NCBI RefSeq assembly: GCF_000003855.2
Contig: NW_003101657.1
Location: forward strand, 218,083-282,082
Source of the DNA: Blastomyces gilchristii SLH14081
Lineage: Eukaryota > Ascomycota > Eurotiomycetes > Onygenales > Ajellomycetaceae
DNA length: 64,000 bases
Reading direction: 5' to 3'
Shown: positions 9,869-61,632 of the stretch, in pieces
Numbering within the stretch: the first letter of the stretch is position 1
Layout: every line of letters starts with the position of its first letter
The notes under the pieces: generated by a model
The model's database searches: none
Seen by the model: only the letters and a program-made list of their open reading frames with translations
What the model was told of the DNA's origin: nothing
Position numbers and translations under genes: made by a program

Positions 9869-12417
9869 ATGTCCCTCAACAGAGTCATGAAGCAGGCTTC
9901 CGAGAAGCAATTCAAATGCACTGTCTGTGACCGCTTGTTTACTCGTATTGACCATCTAAAACGTCATCAGCTCCGTCGTATGTGATTTTTACCTCCCCCC
10001 TTTCTCCCCCCTCCCGCAGTTTCTTCCCCTTTCCCCCAACTGTGACTGATGCCGTGACTCGCGGAGGGAATTATGCTTAAATGTAACATAGATTCTGGCA
10101 TAAGACCCTATTCTTGTATATTCTGCAGCGCTGCTTTCGCTCGCTGGTGAGCTCCATCGTGTGTCTCCGCCCTTTATACAGTTTCTGATTATTTCGTCTA
10201 AAGCGATAATTTGCGCGACCATTATCATGATTGCCCCCAGCGCGGGGATCGACTTATCCCGGAGACTAGCCAAAGAGGCAGGAAGCGTCATGCTTGTGAA
10301 TCTGTAAGTTCCCTTATTTTCCTAGCCTGAGAATGGCCGAATTTAGTAACGCTTTTCTTTTACAGTGCACTTCTATGAAGTTACGTTGCGATGGGGCTTG
10401 TCCATGTGGTGCGTGCCTGAAGAGAAATATTCCATGCACTCGTCAGAGTTCAAGGCCGTATGATGATAGTGAAACTCGGACCGGTATGTCATCATCCTTA
10501 ATTCTGGTGTGATCAACTTCTTCATTCCTGGATGCGCTAATCACCGGCATTATACTATAATACTCTCAAATAACAGATTCAACGAAATCTGACGATTTTG
10601 ATCAGACTTCTGAGCGGGGTTCAGTCAAATTCCTGCTCAATGGAGGCACGGATAGCTTTACAGAAGGCTTCCACCTCCCTTCCCGCCATGACAGAGCCCA
10701 AGTTCTTTCTTGGCCTGAGCATAATCATAATCATGTGGGAAACATGAGCCAAGCCATGAGCACGCGAGAGCCTGTGAATTTACCAGATAATGCTCACACC
10801 CATCATCCCGTTTCAGGAATTGAGAGCCAGCCTGTGGATGTGGCATTTTACAATGACGGGTTTCTTCAATTTTTTAATGGCGGATATAACACTGGCCCTC
10901 GATTCCAGCCTGACGAAACTCCAACTTCATTTGCTCACCCACCTGCGACTCCCATTCAAGGGCTTCCCCTAACATCTTCAGCAGAACCATATTTTCAACC
11001 AGAAAGCCCGTATTCGACGAACTTGATACAATCAATTCTATCAAAATCATGGGTGTTGGGATTGGATGAGATCTCGTCAATGGAACTCGCGCATGAGCTG
11101 CGATTTTTGTTAATGACCCAAAGAATCCAAAAGTTTGTCGCTCTCTATTTTCAGAGCTGGCACAATAACTGCCCAATGATACACCAGCCGAGTTTCAATC
11201 CTGAAACAACTGCTCCGACTCTGCTTGCTGCTGTCGTCCTTATGGGAGCTACTTATTCGGAGAACGCAAGCGAAAGGCTTGCGGCGAAAAAGATGTCCGA
11301 TGTAATAGAGATGTTCATCTTCTCTACCGAAGTGTATTCCCAAGAATTTGAAATTGCCCAATCATATAAAGTAGCCCATGACCGAGTCGATATAAAGACA
11401 GACTGGAGGAGCTTTGAAAATTTCCAAGCGGGATATTTGATGTTTTTGATACAGTACTGGGGAGGTTCTAGGGCTGCGAGGAATCGAGTGATAGAGGTTA
11501 GGTTTGGAGAAGTGGTCAGGGTAGGTCCAACCCGACGAATATCTTGAATTCTGTTTTCAGTGCAATGAGTCAACTAACCCATGGAAAAGGTTGCACGTCA
11601 AATGCAGCTGACAAAGTGTAGGCATGGCCTTGAAGATCAAATGAGCGAATACCTTTGGCTCCAGAAAGAGTGTCGGATACGGTTGGTCGGCCTTTTGCCC
11701 CTCACTAATTGTTACTTGATGTTCTCCTAACTGATATCATCAAGGACGATGATTCTCGTATCGATGATCGACTCCGCAATGCCATTTTTCCAGAACTATC
11801 CTTCACGATTGACGAACATCGAAATCCAATGCGATTTACCTTGCCACGAATCACAATTTGCGGCTAGACATCCATTTCTGGAACCAGACTTCCGGCTCAG
11901 CCGCGAGATGACGGTATACCAGGCTTTTCAAAATTTGTTCGTGGAAAACGGGCCTGTCCGCCCCCTTTTCGTTCACTGCGGCACGAACAAATTACACCTA
12001 GGAATAATGGATATGTTTCTTCTCATCCATCGTAAGTCCTACCCCATTAAAATATCAATTACCCAAGGGAAACAAAAGCTTACATGCAAAGAAATCTACG
12101 CCCACATCCATATGATCATAAACCTTGCAATGCCACAATTTGGAAACCGAAACATCAACAAAACAGATTGCGCAACTGTTAGTGGGATTAAGGTCGCTCT
12201 TGAGCACTGGCGGTCACTATGGATCTCCCTCCGCACCGAGCTTCCCAGTACTGAGTGGGAGCGCGTGGGATTCTTCAAGGGAGCGTACAACTACTGGCTC
12301 GTAGCGCAGTTGCTCATTAGCAAAAATGCCAGCGTGGATATTCTGATGAGAATGGAGATCAACTGCGAGGACAAACTGAGCCAGCTGAAGGTCCTCCTAC
12401 CAGACGACTATGATTAA
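9869..12417 (+). CDS. Transcription factor with C2H2 fingers, Zn2Cys6 cluster and fungal_trans-like domain
   Basis: This is a predicted nuclear DNA-binding regulator with two zinc-binding modules. My model has seven exons: 9869-9977, 10092-10146, 10204-10303, 10366-10483, 10577-11496, 11590-11681 and 11745-12417. It gives about 688 residues and phases agree at every join. Finger 1 has C17, C20, H33 and H37. Finger 2 has C45, C48, H61 and C65, so its last ligand is Cys. The Zn2Cys6 cluster follows (CESCTSMKLRC, then CPCGACLKRNIPC). The C-terminal two thirds resemble the fungal-specific transcription factor middle region, with FVALYFQSWHNNCPMIHQP as the typical entry motif. The start was chosen because it opens directly into finger 1. 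A further intron near 12031 cannot be excluded. Target genes are unknown. Confidence 0.8.
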
Positions 12418-16040: not shown

Positions 16041-17484
16041 TCAGGATTCTTCCTTCAGGGCGCACAAGTCAGTTCCAAGCAGCCTGTCTATCATGTACCA
16101 GAAGCGCCAGTAAGCGTTTGATTTGTCATGATCGAACGTTCCATCTTCGCCAAGTACAGGCCCATCACCAACGATGTCCCCAGTAAACCAGCTTAAAATT
16201 GGAATAGACCGAAGGATCCGTTCAATGACAGTTGGTTGGGGAGGTAGCGCTTCAGAGATTGGCCGTAAAACGGCACGACGAACTGTGGGAATATGGGTCA
16301 TACATTCGGATTCAGGTTTTCGTGGAGGTTCGGATTGGGACTGCAGTTGAGTTTGAGTTTGGCGCTGGCGCAGAGTGCTCCCTGAGCCTAAATCAGTGGC
16401 TGTCGCAGAGCTGGCAGTTACAGTGGATCCCTGAGAAGCAACAGAGTCATCTATAGTTCCGTCCGTCGAGATTGTATTGGTAATGAAGGAGCGAGGAAGG
16501 GTAGATCTGTCGAGATCAGATGGTTTTTGAAGGAATATGTTGGACTGAGACAGAGTTAAAGTATGTGGCTTCAGTTGCAGTCGAATAGATTCGGCAGAGT
16601 CTTTGGGAATCGGAGCATCATGTTGTGGACCCTGACCATGGTATGGTTCACAGAATACTAGGAAACCGTCTATATCTTGCGGGGAGAAGAAGCAGGCACG
16701 ATCAGCGGCAACGGCTGAGTCAAATGTGACCTTTATCCAGTGATCTCCTCCAGCATATCGTTTCGCTTTCTTATTGGCATCAGCTGATAAAGTCGGGTGA
16801 ATAACGACGTCACGACCGCTTAGTAGCTGGGGATATTTTGGTGTCAAATCAGGGTCGGTTCTGGAATAATCCTCGCATATCATGCCGTGAGATATTCGCT
16901 CGAATTTGTCAATGACTTTCCATTCAGAATCTTTGGTCTTGTAGCCATAAAGGACGCACTCCGTAGCAACTTTTTCAATAGACTTTCGGGGTGGATCGTT
17001 ACAATTATTGGTAGTGGACGGAGGTAGGTGCTTTAATTGAGCCTGTTCTTGTTCCTGTTGCTGCGCGAAAAGCTTGCTGAACTCTGCCACGTTTGGGTTT
17101 TCTTTTCTGGCTGGAGTCCCCGTTCGAGTTCCCGATCGAGTAGAGTTGTAACGCGCATTCCGCCTCTTTCCAAAAGGACCACTCTCTTCTGGGGGCCGTC
17201 GTGGATTCCGCGACTCGCTAATAGATAGGTTAGTTTTGGTAGGGAAGCGGCGGGCATTGTAAACGAGGAGTAACAAAGATGGTGACAGCATCCAACAAAG
17301 CGAGAGTGAGGTGAAAGTGAATAATAATACATATATAATAATACATAAAACATAGCAGCAAAAAGAGAATAAAGCAGACGGATGTGGGGAGAATATCTTA
17401 CTCTTTGTAAACATATCCCCAAGGGAGAATATTTCCTTTCTCGTCTCTGGCGCGTTCCTCTAAAGGAACAGCGTGGTACTCCAT
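16041..17484 (-). CDS. NUP53: Nucleoporin Nup53/Nup35 with Nup35-type RRM
   Basis: This is a scaffold and membrane-proximal component of the nuclear pore complex. I place exon 1 at 17484-17402, the intron at 17401-17218 (GTAAGA...TTAG) and exon 2 at 17217-16041, giving 419 residues. Residues 1-28 (MEYHAVPLEERARDEKGN...) lead into a low-complexity basic region. The Nup35-type RRM spans about residues 112-235 (TECVLYGYKT, FERISHGMI, YAGGDHWIKVTFDS, VFCEPYHGQGP). The C-terminus ends in a helix (YWRFWYMIDRLLGTDLC) typical of membrane-binding Nup53 tails. Reading straight through the intron gives an alternative start at 17414 with a spurious hydrophobic N-terminus. I reject it because the spliced model restores a polar N-terminus in phase. 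Confidence 0.88.
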
Positions 17485-20327: not shown

Positions 20328-21732
20328 TCAAATCCAATCCCTAACCTCCCCCTCAGCCCACCTCCACAACCCATTCCCGACGGTTTCATCCTCGGCAAAC
20401 CAATTCCTCGCCCAAACTCCAACAGGGTTGAAATACGCCCCATTCGTCAACATCTTCTTCTCTACCCCGGCAGCCCACAAATGATTAAGCGCCCCTTCCT
20501 CCTCACCTGTCAACAGGGGCCCCGCCGCAGCAGTTGCATACCTCACAAGCGGATTAGAGAACTTCGTCGGTGAGTATAGGTTGGTCAAGATTAGACCTGG
20601 ATGGAGAGATACAGAGGTTATTTGCGGGTAGAGGCGGGCTAGTTGCGCTGCGAGCGCGACGTTGGCGGCTTTAGAGCAGCCGTAGCGCGTCCAGGTGTTC
20701 TCCGTTAGAAGCTTCGCTGTGGATGTCATGGTCTCCAGTGGATTGTAGGCTGGAGCTAGTTGCCAGGCGAGGGATGAGACTGAGATTACCCGCACGTCTG
20801 CTGTTGCTGGCTGGCGGGGGACATTCGAGGCTTTTGCAGTTTCGAGGAGGATAGGTAATAGGAGTTTTGTAAGGAGGAAGTGGCCGAGGAAGTTTGTGCC
20901 GAATTGGATCTCGTAACCGTCCTCGGTAGTGTCTGGCGGTAAGGCCATTACGCCAGCGTTGAGGATTAGGATATCGAGCCGGCTGTTTTCGGACTTGAAG
21001 GTGGATGCGGCAGTTTGGATGGACTGGAATGATGCGAGGTCGAGGGGTAGGAAACGGATGTCAGTAGCTGAAGTTTGTTCGGTGCTCAGGGAAGATTTGA
21101 TATCTGTTATGGCTGCAAGCGCTTTATCTTCGCTGCGCGCGGCCAGGTAGATGCGGGATGGGCCGTGTTTGGCGAGTTGGAGGATAGTTTGTTTGCCGAG
21201 TCCAGTATTTCCTGGTGATATAGTTAGACACACACGCTAGGTGATCAGCGCACTTCGCACCGTCTACAGGAGACCATGGGCCCTCTATTATGTGATGAAA
21301 GGGGTAAAGAGAGCAAGTTGTCCGGAACATACCTCCTGTGAGAAGTATAACCTTGCCTCTTAGATCCCCCATATCTCTCTCCGGCGCAAACACTCTTCTA
21401 CCCAATAGTTTTGAGCCGATATGGCTCACCGTCGATGCGAGATACATCAGATTCTCTACTGGGTAGTGCAACATGCCAGTTATAAACCGGGCTGTGGATA
21501 TCACCTCCTGCCAAGCGCTGGGAGTTTTTCTACCATGAGTCGATGGGGTAGCTGAAGCTGAAGCTGAAGCTGAGAGATTCATGGTGGTTTTTCGACACTC
21601 GGCTACTTCACTGTTATCGATGCTACTATTAGTTTCGTTGCTTCTGCTCCCAGATTCTGGGGGAGAAGATGCGAAAGTATCATTTCCCTGAAGCATTTTG
21701 GGTTGTTCAAAAGTAAAATTCTTGGGAATCAA
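20328..21732 (-). CDS. Short-chain dehydrogenase/reductase
   Basis: This is an NAD(P)-dependent oxidoreductase of the classical/extended SDR type, close to retinol-dehydrogenase-like fungal SDRs. The substrate is unknown. Two exons (21732-21333 and 21211-20328) with one intron give up to 427 residues. The intron splits the cofactor loop, which reads TGGNTGLGK after splicing. Further motifs are LNAGVM, the catalytic Ser in VISVSS and the YGCSK active site (Tyr and Lys). The N-terminal 130 residues before the Rossmann fold are variable and include a SASASASA run encoded by a small AGCTGA-type repeat. Several in-frame Met codons make the true start uncertain; 21696 and 21582 are alternatives. 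A membrane-associated N-terminus is possible. Confidence 0.88.
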
Positions 21733-22577: not shown

Positions 22578-24866
22578 TTAGAACTCAAAACTCTCTACAT
22601 GTAAATATATCCCTTGGGCCCCCGTACCCTTATGGACTGCCCGCTCGTCACTTAGCGACACGATACTGCCACGTACATCACTATTAAGCCCACGTGGGCC
22701 ACATACCACGACGCCGCTCTCGCCTTCAGCCACCTCGAGGACTTTGCGGATTATGCCACGCGAGTCGGGCCGGCCCGAGAGAATTCGGACACGAGGGTCG
22801 AGTACTGACTTTGGGAGTGGGTGGGAAGTGAGCTCTTGTGTGGTGGCGGTGGTGGTTGTTGTTGGGGAGGGCTTTTGTGGTGGAGTTGGGTTTGAGGTGA
22901 GGGTTGATTTTTCTTGGGTTATCGTCTGTTCTCGTTCTGATAGAGGAGTTTGTGGTGAAAAAGATGGGCCTGAGCAGTTGCAGGGTGGGAAGGAAGAATT
23001 TTCGTCGGTGACTTCGCGCGTGCAACAGCATCCGCCATCTGGTTGGCACTCGTTACGTCCCGTTTGTGGGCCGGATTCATCGGTTGTTGAGGCGGAGGTG
23101 ATGGAGATAGTTTCAATGTTTTTCTCCAGGATTTCTTCTCTGGCTAGTTCACTTTTTAGCAAAGTAGGGTTGGTAATTTGCAGCTTCACTGATTGTGGTG
23201 ATGGCAACTGCGGTTCGGATTTTGATGTTGAAGCCATCTCCTCGTCGCATGTAACATAGATGCTGATCTCGAGCTCCCCCTTAAAGGTAGGGTTACGCTG
23301 CTGGCATGCATCTATATCTTGTAGGGCGGCATCTAAATGCTCAGAGAACCAGCTGAGTAGTGATCGGGATCTAATTACCCAGATAAAGCGGATCCGTTTG
23401 GTAACTGACCGGTTGGGAGATGAGAGGAAAGACCCACGCTGGGGGGCTTTGACTAGACATTCGCTCTTCCAGCCCTCCACAACATCACGCATTAGGGGCA
23501 TGGTGAATGTGGCGCCCATACCCCCAGCAAGTAGCACCAGGCTATCGAACTGCCGTAGCGGCCTTATCCTTCCGTACGGGCCTTCTACTCCGACAAGCTT
23601 AACATTCCCGGAACTAGTGCAGCGCCCGCCCAGAAGGTCATGATTTTTTGACGCATATGAGAAAAATTTCTTCGTTCCCCCCTTTTGTGCGCGCACTAGG
23701 AATTCTAGTTTCTTGTCCCCCGGAATCGAAGCTATGGTAAGAGGATGGCTTTGAAGTGGGACCAGGCCATGACATGATAGTAAAACATGTTGTCCAGGCT
23801 TCCAGGATATCACTGGGTTCGGCACTGTAATTCGTGTAACATTTCCGGGGAGAGGGGTGAAGGTGGCCTCGTGGGCCCAAAGGCGTTGTGCGGTTGTTGC
23901 GTTCCGACGCGGATGAAAAATTGAGAGGTTGGAGCATAATACCAAGGCATATCTAGCGAGTCGATCAAAGACGAGTAATCCAATCGGTATCCACACCCAC
24001 TCTCTCACCTCATCCTGAGCATGATACCACACAGCTACGAGGAAGCCAACAAATGTAAGAACATGCACCAACACAAAGATCTCGTAGCTGAGTTTCCGCA
24101 CGGGCGCCACCGAGACCAAAACAATGAAGGTCAAGATACACCAGGCAGCGAATCCTCGCTGTGTTATGGGGTCTGTAGTCAACTTTACTGTAATGTAATC
24201 ATATCTGGCCCAGGAGCGGAACCAGAACCCCATATGGATGGTTGCGGTGAGCCACATTGTCCTTGCAACCCACCGATGAAGCCAATTTAGTCTCTCATAG
24301 CTCGACCCGATGAGGAGGCCAATGATATTAGTTTTGTTAGAGAGGAGTATCACTAGAGGTAGCTGTGCGAAAGCGACAAATCCAGTGCGATAGCCCACAC
24401 TCTCCCAGCTCCATTCGTCCAACATGTTCATTTTGTATGAGCAGAGGACCATAACCACGATTAGATTGGCAAGCATAAGCATCGTCGGCCCGAGAGGGGG
24501 TAGATGAAATTCGGCACGGCCTATAATGATCGGGGCAAGGGGGTAATTGGAAACCTCTCTCATCATGGCCGTAATGGTAGCATATATGCTAAAGAAAAGA
24601 GATTTCGGTTTCGACGGGGTCGGGCTCGAATCAACAAGTCTGCCAACTCGTTTCCGTTAGCAGTGAGATATCCATCATTGAGCGATGAGCGCAAGATGCA
24701 TAACTCACCTCTGGGCTGCTACAATCTTGTTCAGGACATTGCCCACGGTGGCTACCCCGATGGCGCTCCCCACCACCGCCCAGTACATCTGTTGCATATA
24801 GAAGTAGCTGGGAGCATCTCCTGTAGAGGCACCTCCCCCTCCCCCTCCATGCCCGGCATGGCTCAT
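22578..24866 (-). CDS. Ferric/cupric-chelate reductase (Fre family)
   Basis: This is a plasma-membrane flavocytochrome b that reduces extracellular Fe(III) or Cu(II) with NADPH. Exon 1 is 24866-24709 and the intron 24708-24640. Exon 2 is 24639-22578. Together they give 739 residues. The N-terminus is His/Gly-rich (MSHAGHGGGG) and is followed by a first membrane segment. The ferric-reductase transmembrane domain has heme-ligand histidines in LHRWVARTMWLTATIH and in VLVHVLTFVGFLVAVWYH. The FAD-binding motif is HPLTIAS and the NADPH-binding motif LLAGGMGATFTMPL. A long low-complexity insertion with a Cys cluster (GGCCCTR, PCNC) separates it from the final VVVCGPRGL. It is divergent from a Ctr copper transporter across 1.6 kb, so cupric reductase activity is the better guess. 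Metal specificity cannot be read from sequence. Confidence 0.9.
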
Positions 24867-25418
24867 TGTGCTGGTTGTTTACCCCAAAATGGGGGTATGG
24901 TATGTTCGACAGATAAAAAGTGTCCGATATACGAATATGAAAATATAAGGGATCAATGATATCTTTTGATGTCTCTAATTGCTGGGAGAAAGAAAGGCGT
25001 CCAATGTTGCTTTCTTTATGTTCCTCCCATTGCTGACAACAGACTAGAGCAGAGAAACATCTACCGTCGCATAAAAACAAGCAACACAGGAACGACAGGA
25101 ACGAGAAGTTATGAGAACCGATTGTTCCGCTCAGCGCTTGAGAGCGGGGCAGGGTCCTTGGATAGGAAGCACAATGTGGAAGCACAGATGTCACAGATAA
25201 TAATACACAGACAGCCGTTCTCCGCGAGGGCTGGAATCGCTCACGGTGGTAATTTTTTATTATCAGCAACTCAAAGCCCAGAGGCAAAATGAGCATAATA
25301 TTACGCCATTATCAGCAGGAATTTGCCGGCAATATTCCAGCAAACATCTCAGACCTTCTCGGCGGGCTTTCTTTTTTTTTTCTTAGCCGCTGCTGTTGGA
25401 GTCAGCATACATTGAAAA

Positions 25419-25426
25419 TGTGCTCA
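25419..25426 (+). promoter_or_regulatory. Candidate copper-regulator (Mac1-type) site
   Basis: TGTGCTCA is identical to the motif I recall as reported for the A. fumigatus low-copper activator AfMac1. It lies between the reductase and Ctr genes. The assignment is by sequence match only. Confidence 0.45.
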
Positions 25427-25854
25427 AGCGCGCCCCCGCCGCGTGGGCTAAACCGTATCCAGCGCAAATCTGGCCTATCCCCGTGGCCCCGCGACCAGGA
25501 TGCGAGAAGCGAAGATAGAACGGCCTGTGCAGATATCGGATCTGGCGGGCGATTTCCTGAGAACCCTCGTGCCGGGTGGTTTGACTCAAGGGGTCATCAT
25601 CATGCTTGGGTGCCACAGGGGAGCCCCACGCTGAGTCTGATACAAACGAATGTCTGGACTCAAAAGAAGGTGATGGACGGGGGGGGGTTTGGTGAGACAT
25701 AGGAAACTTGAACCCTTCCGGCGGCGCCAGATCATCTCGTACATCCGTATCTGCGACCAGCGGGGATCCAGTGTACCATTATAGCTCCCGGTAATCGTTG
25801 GGATCTAGCTCAAAAGTGCTCCTAAAAAGCACTCCGCCTTCTTCTCGTACTCTT

Positions 25855-25862
25855 TTTGCTCA
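25855..25862 (+). promoter_or_regulatory. Candidate copper-response element (TTTGCTCA)
   Basis: TTTGCTCA matches the yeast Mac1 copper-response consensus TTTGC(T/G)C(A/G). It lies 635 bp upstream of the Ctr start. The same octamer occurs elsewhere in the window without copper genes (near 10928 and 50536), so the weight is modest. Confidence 0.3.
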
Positions 25863-26496
25863 CCACCCCTCCAGGGCATATACGAAGACACCACGCCTCA
25901 ATCGTTTCCTGCAGGTATATACATACACCAGGTCTCGCCCGCTTCGGCTTCCCTCTTCTCTCTTCCACTGCATAGTTGTCTTCGTGACCTGTTGCACTTA
26001 GTCCGTCCGACCTGTCGGGGTCAACTCTGCCCTTTACTGATTTCAAGGCCTGCCGATATAACAGATCTTCAAGCCTGGCGTTTGAAGTGCCGTATCCACC
26101 GCGCCCTTGGGCTAATTTTCCCGTCTGCTTTTAAAGAGGCATCCAAGGGCCAGCTTGGGACAGAGTTACTGCTTGTATCTGCCTCTCTGCTATACGCTCA
26201 TTTTTATTTTATTTATTTTATTATTATCTTTCGAACCCATTCTTGAAAGATATATCATACTCTAGCGAACTGGTGATAGGAAGACAGAACATACGTGTGC
26301 GACGAACTCGCTGTTTTCATATATACTTCGTGTCCTTGGATACTTTCTCAAGGAAAGCAGAAGGATTTAATACCTCTTTCAATCGGCCCTGGTGAACACA
26401 ATATACAACTAAACTCGCCTACGGATCGACATACACAGTGGAACTCCTCACAAACAAATCAACCAAAAGAAAAATCACGAAACCAATTACAGCAAA

Positions 26497-27171
26497 ATGT
26501 CTCCCTCCCCTCAACATGGTGGCCACGGCGTATCCTCCCATCCCTCTGGCGGGGAACTGCATATGATAATGGCCTTCCAAAACGTCCAAGCAACTCCCCT
26601 CTTCGCGATCGCCTGGACCCCGAACTCCGCCGGTGCCTACGCCGGGACCTGTATATTCCTTCTTCTCTTCGCCGCCATATTCCGGGTCCTGATCGCTGTC
26701 AAAATCCAACTAGATCACCGATGGACCGCCGCGGCCTATTCGCGCCGATATGTTGTTGTTGCGGGCCATACGCCGGAAGCAGAGCGGATGCAGGATGACC
26801 CCAACGCGTCCACGGCCACGCTGATTACGGCGCATGGCGTCGAGGAGAAAGTTAAGGTTATCAAACGGCCGCTGAATCGTACACCACCTTTCCGGTTTAG
26901 TGTTGATTTACCGCGGGCTCTATTGGTGATGGTTCTTGCTGGTGTGGGATATTTGCTGTAAGTGTTTCGCCCTGTTCTTTCGTTGTTGGATGGATATTGG
27001 AAGAAAACAGTGAAATAGATATATAAAAGATGTGAAACTAATATGGTATTTTTATATAGCATGTTGGCTGTAATGACTATGAATGTTGGCTACTTTATGT
27101 CGGTTCTGGCTGGTGTCTTCGCTGGTGACCTTGCTGTTGGCCGATTCGGGAGTTCTGCTGAAGCCCATTAA
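26497..27171 (+). CDS. Ctr-family copper transporter
   Basis: This is a trimeric plasma- or vacuolar-membrane Cu(I) importer. Exon 1 is 26497-26957, the intron 26958-27059 (GTAAGT...TATAG) and exon 2 27060-27171. They give 190 residues, normal for low-molecular-weight fungal Ctr proteins. The N-terminus is His-containing, with a single Met pair (HMIM). TM1 is at about residues 46-68. TM2 ends in MLAVM, the conserved MxxxM pore motif. TM3 carries GVFAG-type GxxxG packing (VLAGVFAGDLAVG). The intron falls directly before the MxxxM motif, and joining the exons restores it in phase, which supports the model. The divergent reductase upstream and the X325 protein downstream indicate a copper-uptake locus. 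Confidence 0.92.
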
Positions 27172-29205
27172 AAATATGTTTCATTTTTCTTTGCTTTGCT
27201 TTCAGTATTACGAATGTTCTATGGCACGATACATCTTATTTTATTTGAGCAGTGCCTTGGGGAGGGTCCGCTCTTCGTTCTGTACATATTCCCCATTCTT
27301 GTTTATTGTCTTTTCTCTTCTAATGGATGTAGCATTATGGAATAGAATTCCGCTTCCATTCGCACCTACAGTCCATTTACATTTCCCCGTATCACTTCTG
27401 CAGGCCGCCCTCCTTTGTACGAGGGCGGGATAAAAATGACTTGACAACTTGACACACAAATATACAACGTGTCACGTATCATGAGCCAACTATTGGCTAT
27501 TCCCCTTCCGACTGTTGCCTTATACCCCGTTTCGATTAACATTTTCCGTTATACCTCTCACAACGTATCCAATGACCTTCGGCGAGTTTCCAACCTTGGT
27601 AACCCTACGGATTGCTGCTCAAGGACATGACCGTTCACATCATAGCAACATCCCTTCATGCGTCAACCGAGCGCGGATGCATGGGCATTGCAGATCTAGC
27701 TGGGTAATTGATATGTAAAATGTGCATTACCTTCTGAGTATATAGCATATATTCCCAGCCGAGTGGAGTTTGATGGCTTACCTATCTTCACTTTACAGAG
27801 GTGTACATATATCGGCATGTTAGTATTAGGCTTAAGCCGCACCAGAACCCGGCGGGAGAGGGATTAAGGCAATGATATCCATTTGATAATCTGGATGAGA
27901 AATGTGGTACATGTTAAAAGTTGGTTTCCGGCGACGCAAACGAGATGAATAGATTATCTATGGTAATTTACACTGCTTTTCAAAAAGCCAATCGCGGGAT
28001 TGGAGATGGCTATTCCAAGGTTTGACTTGACATAACCAAGATAGTTCAAGACAATATCTGCTACTTCCTGTAAGTCACATTCTATATAAGAGAACCTTGC
28101 TAGCTAGATTATAATACACACAACATGAATTATATCTTAGTTACCCGCCTTTTTTGGTTCTTTTTTTCCCCCCCCATCTATATATTATTTATTTATTTTA
28201 TTTATTCTTCCTTTTATTAACTTTCCTCAATTCTTCATCCCCCCTGCTCTTTTGCTTGGCGTCGTGCTAAATCCCCCGCCACGAGGCAATCAATCAACAA
28301 AACAAAACGCTAAGTAGGTGGGCTTCTTGTGTGGGTTTGTGACTCCACGCTTTGAGCACAATTGAGCAGATTCTTCTTGTTCTTTTCTTTTTCTTTTTCT
28401 TATCGTCTTGTGTGTGTATTTGTGTGTTTTTGTTGATCGTGGGCGTGTGTCTGTTTGCGATAGTGTAGAGAAGTTACCGAGCATTCTTTTATCAATTCGA
28501 TCAGACATGTGGAAACTTGCTGTTCTTCTTTTTTATGTACTCTAGGGCCAGATATATGGCGTAAAGATAAGTGTATCTAAAATATTCTGATGATTCAAGA
28601 GTTGTTTCTCTCCACTTGGAGCGTCGTAGGAGCATTATTATTGCATAACTAGATAACCAACGAATATGACCGCTGAAAGAGGGTGGTATGGTATACGTAT
28701 TACAGGCACATCATTATTTCAGAACTCCGGCGGTGGAGCATGCGCACTCCACGCCCGAGCCATCTGGCGATCAGCCCGTGGTGGAGGAAGAATCACCTTG
28801 GCGGCATATCCCAGCCGCCTCTGCCGTGTGCTGCCGTAGGGCCATAAGCGTAGCTTGCTTTAAATATTAATTGGCATGCCCCTCGCGAGTGTTTTCTATT
28901 ATTTATTGTGACTCCGTATATGTTCATTTTCGAAGCAAATCCGCTTGTTGGTTGATACCCACAGGTTTCACGTTTTCACGAGCCACCGTGCTGACCGTCC
29001 TGTTTTTTAGCCTCTGTTCCTAGTATGTATAGGATCTTCAATGTGTTTGACTTGAGCTGCGCAGTTTCCCTGTCCCTAGCTGATTGGGGTTTACGTTTAC
29101 TCCGTCAACGTTGTCCATCATTGTTCTCATAGATTATTAGTAAACTGACGCCGATTGCAAAGGCCCCAACCCGCATAGAGAAGCAACCACGCAGCGGCCG
29201 CAAAC
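27172..29205. other. Long intergenic region upstream of the BIM1-like gene
   Basis: No gene is recognised in 2 kb. A CT/T-rich tract (28150-28260) and a TTTTTCTTT tract (near 28385) are present. TGAGCACA at 28353-28360 is the reverse complement of the Mac1-type motif seen between the reductase and Ctr genes. Confidence 0.5.
28353..28360 (-). promoter_or_regulatory. Candidate copper-regulator (Mac1-type) site upstream of BIM1-like gene
   Basis: TGAGCACA on the plus strand equals TGTGCTCA on the minus strand, the octamer also found at 25419-25426. It lies about 850 bp upstream of the BIM1-like start codon. The assignment is by sequence match only. Confidence 0.4.
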
Positions 29206-30003
29206 ATGCAGCTCCCAACCAGCCTCCTCCATCTAACCTACCTCCTTACCCTCGCGTCCGCTCACTTCGAACTCATCAAACCAGAGTCTCGCGGCACCGA
29301 GTATGACAAACTCACAGAATACCCCTGCGGCGGCCTCCCCGTCTCCAGCAAACGCACGAGAGTCTCCCTCATGGACCCAGAGCTCAACGTCGCCCTGAAA
29401 ATGGGCCATGACCACAGCGCCGTCCAGGTCCTGCTAGCCATTGGCCCGGATCCAGGCACGAATTTCAACGTCACCCTGGTCCCGACTTTCATGGAAATAG
29501 GCCTGGGTGACTTCTGTCTGCAGGACGTGAAGTTGACCGAGGAGAAACTCGGGACACAGTTGACGGAGGGTCTGGAAGCGACTCTGCAAGTTGTGACGAA
29601 TGGGGATCCCAACGGCGGGTTGTATAACGTGAGTACCTCCGTTCTCAGATGGTAGATATATATCTGGGTATGCAAGGCTTAAGGATTAAAAGGCCATGAG
29701 CTGACAATTTCTCTCTCCTTACTTGTCAATCAATAGTGCGCAGACCTCGTATTCACCGCCTTCTCTTCCGATGACGACGATGCTTCCTGCAGGAACGGCA
29801 CTGGTGTCACTGCCAAGCCTTTCCCAGAGTCAGTGGGCCGCATCAACGCTAATGAATCTACTCCAAATGGAGAGAGACAGGGTGGATCGGGAGGTAGAAA
29901 TGGCGGCGACCAAGGTGGTGAGAACAATTCTGCAGCATCGTTGGAAGCTGCTGCGTGGGGAGTTTTGGGTGCGGCAGTTCTGGCCGCCGGTGCGCTCCTG
30001 TAG
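29206..30003 (+). CDS. BIM1: BIM1-like copper-binding protein (X325 / LPMO-like), GPI-anchored
   Basis: X325 proteins resemble lytic polysaccharide monooxygenases but bind copper for uptake rather than cleaving glycans; Cryptococcus Bim1 works with Ctr1. Exon 1 is 29206-29628, the intron 29629-29736 and exon 2 29737-30003, giving 229 residues. The signal peptide covers residues 1-19. Cleavage after ASA would expose His20 (HFELIKPESRG) as the N-terminal histidine of a His-brace. The family phrases EYPCGG (about 38-43), MGHDHSAVQVLL (His68 as second ligand candidate), NVTLVPTF and GLGDFCLQ follow. The mature domain is followed by a Ser/Gly/Asn-rich linker and a hydrophobic C-terminal tail (WGVLGAAVLAAGALL), a GPI signal. 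Ctr and reductase genes lie immediately upstream. Identification is strong; the copper-uptake role is inferred from family and context. Confidence 0.88.
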
Positions 30004-30468: not shown

Positions 30469-31768
30469 ATGGCTGCACCGCTCGTTGTTCCCGCCCTGAC
30501 AAGGCACACTGCCACCGTTATCATGGCCCATGGATTGGGTGATAGGTTCGTCTGCGATCCCTGTAAATGTCTCCAGGGGCTCTGCATTGATTAGAGGAGG
30601 ATGGAAAAGAGCTGAAGGGAAAGGAAAGAGACTATTTGCTGACTTTTTATCTTCTTTATTTGTCAATGTACAGTGGTGCGGGCTGGTACGTTCCGTATCT
30701 CGCGCGACCTTCCCTTGCCTCGTCCTCTTTCTCCCCTATAACTACAATTCGCGCTGTGACGCGAAATGCAACAACAGACAATTTCGGCCATTCAACTGAC
30801 GTACCGAATTTCATTGCTTTGGACATGTAAAGGATTATGCTAGCCCATAATTTCCGGCGTCGTGGCTTATTCAATGAAGTCGCGTTTATTTTCCCCAATG
30901 CGCCTGCTATTCCCATTACAATTGTACGAAAATATCCCCACCCACCAATAGAGAGGAACCAGAGAGAGAGCAAACCAATTGGATAGAATCTTTATGAATA
31001 GAAGTTCGCTGATGTGCAGGTGTGATGGTTGAATATTAGAACTTTGGCATGTCGATGCCCGGTTGGTATGATATCGTGAAGCTGGGAGTGAATGTTTGTT
31101 TTCCCGTCCAGCCGCCCTGCCTCAGGATCCTGCCGTTCGAGTGATAGTTGCTAAATAAAAAATGGCCGCCTGCAAAATCACAATACCAATAGGTACCCGT
31201 TGAAGAATTCTCTAAAGCCCAGGATGAGCGCGGAATCCTGAAATCACGCGACTATTTCAACAGCCTCATCAAAGCAGAAATGGACAAGGGCATAAGCCCT
31301 TCACGCATCGTGCTGGGAGGCTTCTCGCAGGGAGGTGCCATGTCACTTTTCACTGGCATCACACAGAAAGAGAAGCTGGGCGGCATCTTCGGTCTGTCCT
31401 GTTATTTACCACTCGGCGAGAAGATATCGACGTTCATGCCGGACGGGTTTCCGAATAAGCAGACTCCGGTCTTCATGGCGCATGGCGATGCTGATTCTAC
31501 AGTGCTATTTGAATGGGGCCAGAGGTCAGCTGATAGTCTGAAGGCACTGGGAATGTCGGTGGACTTTAATAAATATGCGTATGTTTTCTTTACACTTTCT
31601 CCATTCCTCTTTCATTCTATTCAGACTTTTACATGCCCTGACGGGCGCGATAACGCTAATTCCAAATATAGTGGTATGGGCCATTCGGCGGACCCGGGGG
31701 AGATGGCGGACTTGGAGAAATTCCTGCACAGGGTGATCCAGCAGAGGATGCAAAGACAGACGCACTAA
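30469..31768 (+). CDS. APT1: Acyl-protein thioesterase 1
   Basis: This is a cytosolic alpha/beta hydrolase that removes palmitate from S-acylated proteins. Six exons were built in phase: 30469-30545, 30674-30685, 30833-30923, 31040-31087, 31193-31578 and 31672-31768. They give 236 residues, the usual length. The N-terminus contains VIMAHGLGD, and the second exon is only 12 nt and completes the family phrase GLGDSGAGW. The third encodes NFRRRGLFNEVAFIFPNAP and the fourth NFGMSMPGWYDI. The nucleophile elbow is GFSQGG. The catalytic Asp lies in HGDADSTV and the catalytic His in GMGHSADP, so the triad is intact. Confidence 0.93.
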
Positions 31769-38845: not shown

Positions 38846-39492
38846 NNNNNNNNNNNNNNNNNNNNNNNNNNNNNNNNNNNNNNNNNNNNNNNNNNNNNNN
38901 NNNNNNNNNNNNNNNNNNNNNNNNNNNNNNNNNNNNNNNNNNNNNNNNNNNNNNNNNNNNNNNNNNNNNNNNNNNNNNNNNNNNNNNNNNNNNNNNNNNN
39001 NNNNNNNNNNNNNNNNNNNNNNNNNNNNNNNNNNNNNNNNNNNNNNNNNNNNNNNNNNNNNNNNNNNNNNNNNNNNNNNNNNNNNNNNNNNNNNNNNNNN
39101 NNNNNNNNNNNNNNNNNNNNNNNNNNNNNNNNNNNNNNNNNNNNNNNNNNNNNNNNNNNNNNNNNNNNNNNNNNNNNNNNNNNNNNNNNNNNNNNNNNNN
39201 NNNNNNNNNNNNNNNNNNNNNNNNNNNNNNNNNNNNNNNNNNNNNNNNNNNNNNNNNNNNNNNNNNNNNNNNNNNNNNNNNNNNNNNNNNNNNNNNNNNN
39301 NNNNNNNNNNNNNNNNNNNNNNNNNNNNNNNNNNNNNNNNNNNNNNNNNNNNNNNNNNNNNNNNNNNNNNNNNNNNNNNNNNNNNNNNNNNNNNNNNNNN
39401 NNNNNNNNNNNNNNNNNNNNNNNNNNNNNNNNNNNNNNNNNNNNNNNNNNNNNNNNNNNNNNNNNNNNNNNNNNNNNNNNNNNNNNNNNNNN
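38846..39492. other. Assembly gap (N run)
   Basis: 647 undetermined bases inside the AT-rich island. Any reading frame crossing it is meaningless. Confidence 1.
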
Positions 39493-42908: not shown

Positions 42909-45429
42909 TCAAATCAAATTGAGATGGTAAGGGCTGTAAATACCTTCCCAACCCCAATCCCTCATGACGCCAACCCAATGCAATCTTCCCCGCACTGTAC
43001 TCTCGATGTCCCTATCATCCAACCAGGGAATAAAAGAGCCTCTTCTAATAGGACTAACTGGCGATGAGAGGGAACGATATGTTTTAATTTTTTTTCCTTT
43101 ACCTGCGATAGCCGGGTTGCTTTTGGACCCGTCCGAAAGCTCGAATATCGCAGAACTTTCCTCCATATTCTCGTCATTATCCACGGTGGGAGGTTTACTA
43201 ACCCCGTAAATGCTTTTCCGTTGAGTCGTATCGACAGGTTGCGCGAAAGATGCTTGTGGAGAATTCTTATTCCTTTCATTGAACGAGTCCCTACGACGCC
43301 ATACCTCCCGAACGACCTCAAGGCACCGATCGATGTTTCCAATCATTAGCCTCGACTGCATCGCAGCCCACCGCTCCTTGACCCAGTTTCGATCCTCTTC
43401 ACTTTCCACCTCGCAGCTCGCGGCGAATAGGGGATATATGTGGACAATTGTTGCTCTGGAACTTGGTGGAACAGTAGCTAATAGCACAAGAACGCGTTTG
43501 GCGAGTTCAGCACCCGATTCAGATGGAACTTCGGGAACGGCTTGGTGTAGATAGAGTAGAATCGCCCAACGATACGCTTGGGCGGTTTGGAAACTATGTT
43601 GAACATTGGAAGTTGGATCCTCTGGAGGTTGGAAGTACTTTGGAACTTCCCATTCTTCAATGAGAGTTTTAAGCTCCAAAGCTTGTGATATGAGCGGAAT
43701 AGAGTTACTTTTGGACTTGCGGACTTTCTGAACCAAACTGGCAACCCGGCTTATTAGTGGAAATAGAGTCGTTGCACATCCCATCAGCGGATCAACCTCG
43801 TGGATAGGCGAGCGTGGAAGATAGGGATTCAAATCCTGGAGTAATAAAGCTTCGTCAACTTCGCCGTCTTCTAGTGAGATGAGTCTCGCGACAACATCTG
43901 TGTATAGCCAAGTATTGTACAAGAAATGTAGGCGTGCTATATCCTTTGCTGGCGGATTGGTACGTTGACGATGCTGCGCCAGAGCCTGATTCAGCAGAAC
44001 CCGTGCACCTCGGCGATGCTGCATGCCAGTGGATATGTGTCGGTCCCAGGACTCTGCAAATACAAGAGCTAGGGTTGTAGTCAATGCCTCATCCATTTTC
44101 ATAGTTTCAATCCCAGTGGCAAGCATACTCATACTCTGATGCATATGATCCATACCATGGACTCTCAGGCGAGGATTTTCTTTGACACAGTGAAATGCGG
44201 ACAGGCAGCATATTGCATGGAAGAGCGCGGGGCAATCTGCTGCCAGGGGCCACACCAAGGTACGCCAGGGGTTTTCAGATATCCCGTCCTTTACAGACAG
44301 AATACCACAGGTCTGCCGGTCGTACCGAGAGAGGAGCATTGCTGGAGATTCCGGATGCAAAGATGGCCCGTAAGATATAGACCTTTTTAGCAGGTTCTTG
44401 AAGCAATCCACTGATGCAGACGAAGCATCCCAACACGATGGCAAGCTCACTTCCGGGTTGGACTGTCGGACTATTTCTTCCACATCTTCATCTTCGAGAT
44501 CTATAAGATCTGGGGTGGGCGGTGGGGCCGATGCTAGCCATTCAGAAGGGCATTCCAGCTGGCCTGTGGTATCATTCGCCAGGAGACTTTCTGCTAATTT
44601 CGGAGATTGAGTTAAGGAGATATATGATGAGTCAGGGATAATTTCTGCACAGTAATCATCCAAATAGTGATCCTGTAGGCTTAAAAGCGACGGAAATAGA
44701 TAATGCGGGTAAATATCATATGCAGGAAAGGATGTAACACCCTCAAGAGAAAGGTACGGGCTCTGGTACTCTTCCACGGTATCTTCCTCAGGTGAATTTG
44801 AACTATGAGGAGTTAGTGGGCTCAGTGTTAAGCGGATTGGCTTACGAGCAGGTACTGTGGGAGAAGGGGGTGGTGCACTAAGGGGAACTATCCACGCGCA
44901 AAGTTAGTATAAATGTCTGTTTATATATGTTCGGTAAATTATATAACCTTTTTTCCCTTTAGGAGCAGATTTGTTCGTAAAACGGGTCTCCTTGAATGGT
45001 CTCCACTTAAAGTCCTTTTTATACCCTCCACAGGTAACATTTCGTTTATGACATTGCTGGCATGTCGGCTTCGTCTCATCGCACTTGAGCCTCTTGGTTT
45101 TGCACGTCACACACCCTGATCAATCACTCACACAAAGGTCAGCTGCTCCTGCCGGCCCACTTAAATTTACTTTGATCCCTGTTGAGGATCCTTATAATGT
45201 TGAATGAATGAAAACCCATACCATTTCGGCTTTTCGACTGTTTGGGTTTGTTAACGCCGCCCGCAGCATGGCTAGGTGGCTTACCCGCGGATTGTTTACC
45301 AGGCTGAGAAGCTGGAGCCACTCTAGATGAAACTACTGGCGGACTTTGTGACCCTTGAGTGCGGATACACCCCTTGGGTTGTACAGCGCCAGTAGACGAT
45401 ATGGCATGCGGGCTTTGACCAGTTTCCAT
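42909..45429 (-). CDS. Zn2Cys6 transcription factor with Fungal_trans_2-like domain
   Basis: This is a predicted nuclear regulator. Exon 1 (45429-45222) encodes a Ser/Pro/Lys-rich N-terminus starting METGQSPH. Exon 2 (45115-44948) encodes the binuclear cluster GCVTCKTKRLKCDETKPTC, followed by QQCHKRNVTC and GGYKKDFKWRPF. Exon 3 (44887-42909) carries acidic stretches and a long helical domain of the Fungal_trans_2 type (ALFHAICCLSAFH, WDRHISTGMQHRRGARVLL, LHFLYNTWLYTDVVARL). Phases agree and give 784 residues. The intron between residues 69 and 70 falls just before the first cluster Cys. A more distal start at 45471 is open, but its extra residues look like 5' UTR. Closest characterised relatives are UGA3/ARCA-like factors; targets are unknown. 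Confidence 0.87.
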
Positions 45430-50681: not shown

Positions 50682-53016
50682 TCAAGCCGGTAGCGAAGGG
50701 GAACTGTGTTTGCCTACGCAAAGTTGAACGAAGCCATCCGGTGACAGCTCACTCCACAGGCCCGTGTCGCAGTCTGAGCCGATCCAGGGGTTAAGAGACG
50801 CAACTGTTGCTACATCGACACCGAACAAATCGGAGAACATCGAGCATTTGAAGATTGCTAGGTAAATTTGAGTTAGTTTCCGGTCAGAATTCAATCTCTT
50901 TCAATATGAGGATCAAGGACGCCGTTTACCCTTATCAGCTGCTCGAAACTGGACATAGCAATCACAGTCCGATGGCTGGACAGATGTCGGCGGTATTAAA
51001 TTTGTATTTGGCGCCATACAATGGTCTTGTGGGCCGGTATAGATGGCTGCAAAAGGAAATCCATTAGTTTCTTGTTGAACAACGTGGGAGTGGAAAAATG
51101 GTCCAGGTCGGATCCAAAATACTTACGTCGTTGCTCCCAGAGTCGAATACAGTAGCTATATTCAACCTGGAAAAAGCAATCCTCCCGTGAAAGACTTGGG
51201 TTCCACTCTAGCAAGTCATCGACTGTCACGTCAGCCACCCATGCCCAGTTTTGACAGCGGTTCATCGTCTTCAAGTCATCGCCGAACCCTGCGTGTTCGC
51301 TGAAGGCGTCTTCGTATATGAGGCAATCCTTGAGCGTTCCTGGCGCTGCAGGCTTCAGCGGAGGGAATTCGATTGGGCTTGGAACAAACGACTCTGCAGG
51401 AGGGTGGGTGAATGTGGCTGAAGGTGCTTCAACGGGATATCCACTATATGTTGCAATGTTTCCGACAGGTTGCACACAGTACGACGTATTTCTCCATAGG
51501 TTGGTGCAGTTGTCGTCAACCTGGGGGTTAAGGAAATAAAAGTCCTTGAGGGATATGCCAAACCTCAGCGAAATCATGGAGCAATAATCGCCATCTTCGA
51601 TCTGTCGCGAGTTCTGTTAGCTCGGATCCCTTGCTTTGCTGCTTTTCCCTTTTCCTCCCTTTTCTTCCACACTTGTGGATTGACCAGAAAGAGGGCGAAG
51701 TACCATATACCAACGGTTGCAGTTGGTGTTTGATTGTCCTTGGGCGTTGGGGGGCACTGGCACTGCTGTAATCATATTCCCCCCTTCTCTCACTGGAACG
51801 GTTGGCGTTGGGGAACTGCGGCGGCCTTGTTAGTTAATTTATATTGGAATCCTAGCAAGATGATGGTTACTTCTCGCCTTGCACAGAAATACCAGCCGGT
51901 ATATGCAGCCAGATTAGAGCAACCGCTGTTGATATGAGGATTCCAGGCTAGGAGTTGTGCCATTGTTATGTTCAAGTCGCGCACCAATGTCTGGCATGTG
52001 TCAGCCAGTTGTAATTGGCGGGTTTCGCATTCCCTTGGTAAGCAAAGGGACTTTCCTGCTGCGGGCAAGAGACTACAGTTGATATCGATGGAATTCTCTA
52101 TAATCAGCCTATATGTCGAGACATTATTATCTCGAGAAATCGTCACACAAGTGTCGCCCTCCTTGATTACGTATTGCTTAGCACAGGTTGGTGCTGGTGG
52201 AGCTGTTGTTGAGTTGAGAGCATACGATGCAGGGGTAGAATAGTCGTAACCATCAGCGTTACAACTTGATGTTAGGGATGAGAAGTCTGCTGCTCCCTCT
52301 TCGGAATAACCAAAGGGTGATGAGAGTTGAAGCTTTTGCAGGCCAAGTTCACAAAACGAACAATCCCGAGCCGGCGCGGAGGTCCCGTTCCAACTGGCGG
52401 CAATGAGGTCACAGTACTGGCCCGTTGATCTAACGAAGTTGTCAATTATAACCTTGACAAACTGCTCCCGCCTAAATCTACCACTGCCACTTACCGGTCC
52501 TCCAGACAGGATAGGCTGGCGGCATAGAGAAACCGGTCCACGAGATAGGTTGCTCAATGATTACGATCAGCAGAAGAGAACACAAAAACACTCAGGCTTC
52601 ATTCATACCTGGGTATGCTATGCTTCCACCAGGAACAATCACATCACTTGGGCCTTTGCACGCGTCCATAATCGAATTTCGAAGATTGTCCAGATCCTTG
52701 CGACACGAAGTTCCGCAGAGAAGTTCGAGTTGCTCCTTTGGAAGTATTTCAAAACTCGCCTGCCTATCTACCGGGTTAACATACAATACAATGAATATGG
52801 CCTCAGGGGTATGCACTCTACTTACGCCATGCCGGAATAACTCCCGAGCCAAGCAGGGCATGAGCTCAATGTGGTGTTGAGAGCAACAAAGCAGGAAGCA
52901 CTCAACCCCAGCTCTTCAAATGGTAGTATATAGCCTTCAAGCTGTTGGCTCCATATAGTTGGAGCCAAGAGAACCAGCACCAGGACAATTGGAGAAAGAA
53001 TTAGTTTGTGAGACAT
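50682..53016 (-). CDS. Secreted multi-LysM protein
   Basis: LysM modules bind chitin or related N-acetylglucosamine polymers. Eight exons were built in phase: 53016-52826, 52763-52609, 52552-52495, 52429-51878, 51815-51704, 51601-51127, 51046-50930 and 50857-50682. They give 611 residues. A signal peptide (KLILSPIVLVLVLLAP) is followed by a Cys-rich non-LysM region (CGTSCRKDLDNL, ATYLVDRFLYAASLSC). Five LysM-like modules come next: CAKQYVIKEGDTCVTIS, TRQLQLADTCQTLV, CNRWYMIEDGDYCSMIS, a poorer one at CQNWAWVADVTVDDLLEWNPSL, and a last one with FKCSMFSDLFGVDVATVASLN. Each has the Asn-Pro or equivalent turn and paired Cys. No transmembrane or GPI signal ends the protein. Intron 51877-51816 appears to be GC-AG. 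It is transcribed divergently from a chitinase. Confidence 0.85.
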
Positions 53017-58856: not shown

Positions 58857-59660
58857 CTATCCCCCTATCTTCTTTATTTTCTCTTTCCAACGCGTATATT
58901 TCGAACGGTTGACCTCTTTAACACAGGCCTTGTAATAATACTTCCATTCCATGGAAGCTTTGGCGCGCGTGAGGTTTTTCGGGATCGGAAGTGCAGCGAT
59001 CTCGGGATCGGTGGGTAGGTCTTCAAGACTGTCCCCCACTGAAGATTCCCCCACTGTAGATTCCCCCACTATAGTGATATCCCTTGTAGATGTCGGAGGG
59101 TCATCAGATTCAACTGTGGGTTCTGGGGAGTTCAGTGTATTCTGCACTAAAAGGGTAGGTATTCTCGCGGAGATATCATAGTCAATCCACCAATTATTAG
59201 TGGGTACGAGAAATAATGGACACTCAGGTTGGATTTCCTCATCAATGAACAGATCATCAATTGATGGATCAGGAATCGCCGAAGGAATCGTTGCGGCGGG
59301 TAGGCCTGGTGTCGCCGAAGGAATCGCCGCAGCCGCTTTACGGGCCGCATTGGGTAGGACCTTCGGGTTGTGCGTAGTAGTTGGTATCGATGGATCGGCA
59401 AGATGGAGGTCCTCCTGGAAGATGACGTCCTTTGATATGTATAAACGCCCGTTGGAGGGATCCTTGTGGGGTTCCATGAAACAGGCTGGCACATTGATAA
59501 CCTCTGCGAGGTTTGCCATCTGATAGGTCTCTGATCCATCTGTAATGAATAGTTGGGTTCTACCCTCACTATTCTTTTCCTTCTTTTCTTTGAATTTCTT
59601 TATCCTTGCAGTGTTGTAGATCCTCCAATTATCTGGAGCACTGTCCGAATTGGCCAATCA
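58857..59660 (-). pseudogene. Copia pol remnant
   Basis: About 265 codons follow the gag zinc knuckle. The stretch starts with the usual post-knuckle segment (NWRIYNTARIKKFKEKKEK) and passes through GRLYISKDVIFQEDLH, which resembles the integrase C-terminal end of Copia elements. It has a Ser/Thr/Pro linker and ends in a segment (ASMEWKYYYKACVKEV) resembling the very start of the reverse transcriptase domain, then stops. The catalytic regions are absent, so this is a deletion product. Confidence 0.65.
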
Positions 59661-61434: not shown

Positions 61435-61632
61435 ATATGTCTATAAAGTCTAAAAATATATCTCACATAATTGAGTAGACAATGTATACCTTCTATTTGT
61501 CTGCAATGCAACTATGTGCTGACTAAGCTGGTGTTCCTTCCATAAACGCAGCCCTACGAGCTCATGCAACAACTTGAAATCATGACGCGCCATTGAGATA
61601 GAATGCAGACAAGAAAATAGTATACATTCACC

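Follow-up and report, generated by a model that had tools for sequence, protein, structure and literature searches.

A probable copper-scavenging gene cluster of a metalloreductase, a Ctr transporter and a BIM1/X325 protein in Blastomyces gilchristii and its relatives

Genes for Fre-type metalloreductases and Ctr copper transporters are known to lie side by side in fungi. In A. nidulans, AnfreC and AnctrA have a promoter region with a Mac1 site in common, and 110 of 127 species have a reductase gene next to their AnctrA ortholog (PMC7705104). Two F. oxysporum pairs, fre12/ctr1b and fre9/ctr3, are divergent; Mac1 binds them, and low copper induces them (PMC11563359). Here we describe a locus of this type in a 64,000-nucleotide stretch of the 74.8-Mb genome of Blastomyces gilchristii SLH14081 (C25:218083-282082; hereafter the window), where a divergent Fre/Ctr pair is accompanied by a third gene, for a surface protein of the BIM1/X325 family. 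The available text of the A. nidulans paper mentions BIM1 0 times; the third gene at fre9/ctr3 is listed as encoding a SAM-domain protein, unlike X325, and BIM1 and LPMO (lytic polysaccharide monooxygenase) both occur 0 times in the available text on F. oxysporum. The window pair and AnfreC-AnctrA may not be orthologous, because two relatives of the window Ctr protein carry the name ctrA2 (P0144, P0149); A. fumigatus CtrA2 has no significant match in A. nidulans (PMC7705104).

Cooperation between the third protein and a Ctr transporter also has precedent. Bim1/Cbi1 of C. neoformans, a member of the same His-brace family, acts in copper uptake with Ctr1, but this species is a basidiomycete, unlike Blastomyces, and linkage of the two genes is left unstated in the available text (PMC7924993). 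In P. destructans the same three kinds of protein (CTR, BLP and metalloreductase) are up-regulated when copper is withheld (PMC12113139, PMC13208438), and the tags of BLP2 and a Fre gene are consecutive (VC83_03095/03096; PMC13208438); in the parts of these papers accessible to us, 'adjacent' and 'neighbor' occur 0 times (PMC13208438), as do 'adjacent' and 'synten' (PMC12113139). A. fumigatus likely possesses the same trio as Afu6g02800/02810/02820, if order may be judged from the numbers: ctrA2 (Afu6g02810) and a metalloreductase (Afu6g02820) are numbered consecutively (PMC8425704), and the A. fumigatus matches of P. destructans BLP2 and its neighbouring Fre are XP_747797.1 and XP_747795.1 (PMC13208438). 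The three Afu6g numbers co-occur with the words metalloreductase, copper transporter and GPI-anchored (glycosylphosphatidylinositol-anchored) in the portion seen of a 2008 paper, which may already concern the trio (PMC2481287). The three-gene linkage, of which an earlier note on this DNA knew no description, is familiar in its Fre-Ctr half, as is BIM1-Ctr cooperation, and X325 as the third gene is the less expected part. Among the papers listed in the literature searched, none was found to describe the trio as a conserved cluster, a weak negative as most subscription papers were missing from that literature.

All three genes are present and intact at 22578-30003, side by side as the earlier note had claimed. 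Each has one intron and an unbroken frame:

22578..24866, minus strand: Fre-type metalloreductase gene (exons 24866-24709 and 24639-22578, intron GTGAGT...CAG; 739 amino acids)
24867..26496, unstranded: divergent promoter region common to Fre and Ctr (1,630 bp, start codon to start codon)
26497..27171, plus strand: Ctr copper transporter gene (exons 26497-26957 and 27060-27171; 190 amino acids)
29206..30003, plus strand: BIM1/X325 gene, counterpart of ELI-Ag1 (exons 29206-29628 and 29737-30003; 229 amino acids)

The X325 start lies 2,034 bp beyond the Ctr stop. At 100% identity and coverage, the spliced X325, Ctr and Fre proteins equal, respectively, P0001 (named B. gilchristii SLH14081), P0121 (named B. 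dermatitidis ER-3) and P0241 ('metalloreductase [Blastomyces dermatitidis ER-3]'). The proposed family assignments are upheld by Pfam matches: X325 to BIM1-like_dom (PF20238; 7.8e-31, 107.9 bits against a curated cut-off of 27), Ctr to PF04145 (2.2e-36, 126.1 bits against 25.3), and Fre to Ferric_reduct (PF01794, 6.5e-27), FAD_binding_8 (PF08022, 3.2e-15) and NAD_binding_6 (PF08030, 2.6e-20).

We read the trio, with a probability of roughly 0.7, as a conserved copper-scavenging gene cluster switched by Mac1, in which X325 captures, Fre reduces and Ctr imports the metal. A copper-fist regulator of the Mac1 type would respond to low copper by turning on the divergent Fre/Ctr promoters and the nearby X325 promoter. 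After secretion X325 would begin at His20 and be anchored at the surface by GPI, its histidine brace and an aspartate ligand holding Cu(II); Fre would pass NADPH electrons across the membrane to reduce the X325-held ion, and Ctr would import the resulting Cu(I). The hand-over of copper from X325 through Fre to Ctr is proposed. What is supported of the single uptake module first envisaged is the conserved gene cluster, its families and a His-brace-type protein; a physical module of the proteins stays hypothetical. If this reading is true, copper capture, reduction and import are assembled in one conserved and probably co-regulated fungal block, and several of these fungi meet copper limitation in their hosts.

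The linkage recurs in relatives. From three protein searches (the best 120 matches each, of 153, 1202 and 908, which favours close relatives) and one C. immitis table, locus tags were compared by eye and assumed to follow gene order. Genes of the cluster are linked, by at most 10 tags or by a common contig of 12-13 kb, in 15 of the 16 species judged, the window's included, and in 14 of the 16 if the limit is set at 5 tags or such a contig; linkage is conserved among relatives. The linked species are B. gilchristii (window), B. silverae, Emergomyces pasteurianus, P. brasiliensis, Helicocarpus, Emydomyces, Myotisia, Polytolypa, Emmonsiellopsis PD_5 (5 tags), C. immitis (5 tags), P. cinerascens (10 tags), A. 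sclerotialis (by a common 12,151-base contig only), Penicillium DV-2018c, P. taxi and Exophiala oligosperma. Tags of X325, Ctr and Fre are consecutive in Emergomyces pasteurianus (AJ78_01503/4/5), Polytolypa (AJ80_06351/2/3) and Myotisia (FQN57_003127/8/9) and close in Helicocarpus (AJ79_07172/70/69). Elsewhere genes are close in pairs, including in the Eurotiales (Penicillium, Aspergillus sclerotialis) and in Exophiala oligosperma (PV06_00134/00133), and to judge from these tags the linkage spans several orders among the relatives listed. The count covers species whose records permit a judgement: B. percursus and Emergomyces africanus (genes on separate short contigs), Histoplasma, Emmonsia crescens, Onygenales PD_10 and Ophidiomyces (records from differing strains or contigs), and Uncinocarpus, Thermoascus, A. 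karnatakaensis, Xylona and Aulographum (a long contig in common without ordered tags) were left out, as were the other X325 matches of the 120 that had no same-strain partner among the matches listed or whose source was unnamed.

Candidate regulatory sites lie in both intergenic regions:

25419..25426, plus strand: TGTGCTCA, candidate Mac1/MacA site in the Fre/Ctr region
25855..25862, plus strand: TTTGCTCA, candidate Mac1 copper-response element (CuRE), yeast/Candida consensus
28353..28360, minus strand: TGTGCTCA, candidate Mac1/MacA site 5' of X325

MacA of A. fumigatus binds the first motif (PMC6514546), and the second matches the yeast/Candida Mac1 CuRE consensus given in PMC11563359. Within the 64-kb window TGTGCTCA occurs at 25419 and 28353 only, and the two cluster regions, 3.66 kb together, would be expected to hold 0.04 copies at the genome rate and 0.12 at the shuffle rate. 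It is found 894 times in the 74.8-Mb genome, against 353 for a reversed control. A local background of 130,344 bases, made of the window outside the cluster promoters and eight loci of other Fre-like or copper-fist genes, and so possibly including copper genes, holds 0 copies of TGTGCTCA and 8 of TTTGCTCA. The form T[GT]TGCTCA is present in 4 of 6 copper-gene promoters, including those of a BIM1 paralog on C6 and a Ctr gene on C2, and the F. oxysporum consensus shows a mild excess in the two cluster regions (5 of 32, against 1.8 expected). The genome has two copper-fist genes. Site placement is suggestive of common Mac1 control, though not proof of it, and Mac1 may bind these candidate sites.

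Expression in relatives points the same way. In young spherules of C. immitis, CIMG_10032 (ELI-Ag1, 224 amino acids) and CIMG_10037 (a copper transporter, 193 amino acids) rank 4th and 5th among up-regulated genes, at log2 7.092 and 7.072 (PMC8150946); their lengths fit those of P0012 and P0136, which are related to X325 and Ctr and come from C. immitis. The authors present one as an antigen and the other as a transporter, and caution that strong up-regulation need not mean a functional relation (PMC8150946). In P. destructans, copper withholding raises BLP2 and its neighbour Fre by log2 3.57 and 3.59 (PMC13208438), and Histoplasma CTR1, CTR2 and CTR3 are all up in low copper (PMC6277122). Co-regulation of the trio thus receives only indirect support, from the common promoter motif, the nearly equal induction of the C. 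immitis X325 and Ctr genes and that of P. destructans BLP2/Fre; low copper would induce the trio in Blastomyces as well.

Several observations weigh against a uniformly Mac1-controlled, conserved cluster. In Capronia coronata X325 and Ctr sit on separate contigs and are unlinked, the X325-Ctr gap in Penicillium cinerascens is 10 tags wide, and both Ctr genes of P. destructans are away from its Fre-BLP2 pair, unlike the window (PMC12113139, PMC13208438). When the window is shuffled, TGTGCTCA occurs 2.1 times on average and at least twice in 66 of 100 shuffles, so that the number in the window is ordinary and only the positions are notable. Two of the 6 copper-gene promoters (BIM1 on C2, Ctr on C3) are without a site, and the core TGCTCA is only mildly enriched in the two cluster regions (7 of 61, against 3.5 expected). 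The candidate sites stand 560-1078 bp from start codons, and the functional CuREs of Histoplasma CTR3 are nearer, reported at 176-273 bp in the available text. In C. immitis the comparison was of life stages and not of copper levels, and the most-induced table as available does not include Fre (PMC8150946). BLP2 was detected in all conditions (PMC13208438). A Histoplasma Mac1 study reports 15 Mac1-dependent genes, and the words 'reductase' and 'BIM' occur 0 times in its main text, which speaks against uniform co-regulation; a Paracoccidioides study of copper deprivation likewise names neither PADG_04649 nor PADG_04650 in its main text.

X325 and Bim1 were reportedly defined by two papers of 2020. 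The window's X325 was said to expose a histidine after ASA, and indeed His20 is present in 68 of 68 aligned sequences, the window's included, the cleavage site being read from the ASA-H sequence. H68 (in MGHDHS) is His in 67 of the 68 and D144 is Asp in 66. The predicted structure matches LaX325 with His1 and His2 conserved, so that structural modelling also favours a His-brace. Copper binding is predicted from sequence, with D144 as a putative ligand by alignment to LaX325 and by the aspartate ligand of X325 reported in PMC10952591. A hydrophobic C-terminus, found in all 68 sequences, is consistent with a GPI anchor.

The Coccidioides counterpart of this protein is a vaccine antigen. Expression library immunization antigen 1 (ELI-Ag1; P0012) is 54% identical to the window's X325 over its full length and carries a BIM1-like domain with a His after TA, but it has been handled as a protective vaccine antigen (PMC10301004, PMC8150946). 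That ELI-Ag1 is, by its sequence, a BIM1/X325 protein encoded near a Ctr gene is, together with the cysteine cluster in Fre, the most useful new point, and a known vaccine antigen thereby gains a testable biochemical role. ELI-Ag1 was not tied to copper in the literature searched, again a weak negative with most subscription papers missing.

X325 might instead be mainly a cell-wall protein under copper control, linked to the other two genes for common regulation and handing no copper to Ctr. The presence of BLP2 under all copper conditions tested fits such a role, as do its authors' suggestion that it may be a core component of the extracellular matrix, the cell-wall function of C. neoformans Bim1/Cbi1 cited in the same paper (PMC13208438) and a paper dealing with cell wall and copper (PMC9258870). 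Against it, of 68 sequences 66-68 retain His1, His2 and the aspartate, and Ctr and Fre are the genes to which linkage was seen, with no search made for linkage to wall genes. We consider this explanation unlikely.

In the transporter, the MxxxM motif of the second transmembrane helix (M155/M159), noted earlier as intact, and the GxxxG of the third (G172/G176) are invariant in 32 aligned sequences, the window's included. We take these to be the usual Ctr motifs in name and role. MxxxM is likewise described in PMC7705104.

Fre is a metalloreductase by domains and motifs, with Cu(II) reduction predicted. Besides its three domains it carries an HP motif and CGP, and His174, His188, His245 and His259 are unchanged throughout 59 aligned sequences, its own included. 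We take the four histidines to be haem ligands and HP to be the FAD motif, and assume the usual roles for the CGP position. Two further features stand out:

24807..24866, minus strand: His/Gly tail at the N-terminus of Fre (MSHAGHGG...); rich in Met in most relatives
22974..23030, minus strand: five-cysteine motif of Fre (Cys cluster), CCC-x13-CxC, within an insert of the NAD-binding domain that is variable and poorly conserved

The tail is recognisable in 83 of the 120 Fre sequences listed, and 81 of these 83 have His and at least 3 Met besides the start; methionine makes up 22.4% of tail residues (start Met counted) against 1.3% elsewhere in the protein. Placed before the first membrane helix, this Met/His tail resembles the Mets tail of Ctr proteins, although the membrane side it would face is uncertain. 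The motif C[CYS]C...CxC is present in 116 of the 120 listed sequences, the window's included, and absent from 4, two of them from Arthroderma and Trichophyton. It was not found at the 6 other NAD_binding_6 loci recorded in this genome, searched in open frames of at least 60 amino acids, where an intron-split motif would escape. The Fre model has a mean pLDDT (predicted local distance difference test) of 71.5, with 10-residue means of 57, 83 and 66 over the Cys island and below 50 in the flanking stretches. The related literature, in the parts examined, does not mention a Cys cluster in Fre.

These features would allow a surface relay with a brake, a reading we hold to be quite doubtful. X325, of which ELI-Ag1 would be an example as the capture part, would offer Cu(II) to Fre, whose Met/His tail would catch the reduced ion and pass it to Ctr; CCC...CxC, in a predicted cytosolic domain, would bind incoming Cu(I) and slow Fre when the cell is replete. 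Through the conserved cysteine feature, a copper reductase may in this way be able to sense the ion that it produces.

Fre could also serve iron rather than copper, its position next to Ctr reflecting general metal reduction. Database names of relatives include ferric reductase and ferric-chelate reductase, and family models do not distinguish copper from iron, but Fre has its divergent promoter region in common with Ctr, the locus holds candidate Mac1 sites, and P. destructans VC83_03096, the Fre next to BLP2, is up when copper is withheld (PMC13208438); an iron role is improbable. That the trio are neighbours by chance is exceedingly improbable and was rejected, since, although the finding was chosen by eye in one window, a Ctr gene flanked by Fre on one side and BIM1 on the other arose in 0 of 200,000 simulations that scattered 13 genes at random over an assumed total of 10,000 (the genome holding at least 3 BIM1-like, at least 3 Ctr and at least 7 NAD_binding_6 loci), and linkage recurs in the species judged.

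Other copper loci of the genome were recorded alongside. A BIM1-like paralog at C6:2181792-2182235 has a His at the expected end of its signal peptide and TGTGCTCA 440 bp upstream, and the idea that this motif is confined to the clustered BIM1 gene was dropped. A second paralog, at C2:2623388-2623699, also has a His at the expected signal-peptide end, with no TGTGCTCA within 1.7 kb upstream. A further Ctr gene at C2:6787348-6787743 has two TTTGCTCA upstream, measured from the main open frame and not from the start codon. It is possibly the counterpart of Histoplasma CTR3, which by sequence it presumably resembles more than the window Ctr does.

Elsewhere in the window, long open frames at 16044-17459 (minus), 58860-59657 (minus) and 61621-62625 (plus) have no Pfam match at E 0.001, and a run of 647 N at 38846-39492 accounts for the low G+C there and for six open frames that overlap one another at 38.8-39.8 kb. 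Open frames at 10561-11544 (plus) and 42912-44903 (minus) contain fungal-specific transcription factor domains, and one at 51793-52560 (minus) contains a LysM domain. The trio itself is flanked by a short-chain dehydrogenase (20328-21236, minus) and by an exon of the phospholipase/carboxylesterase family (31193-31768, plus).
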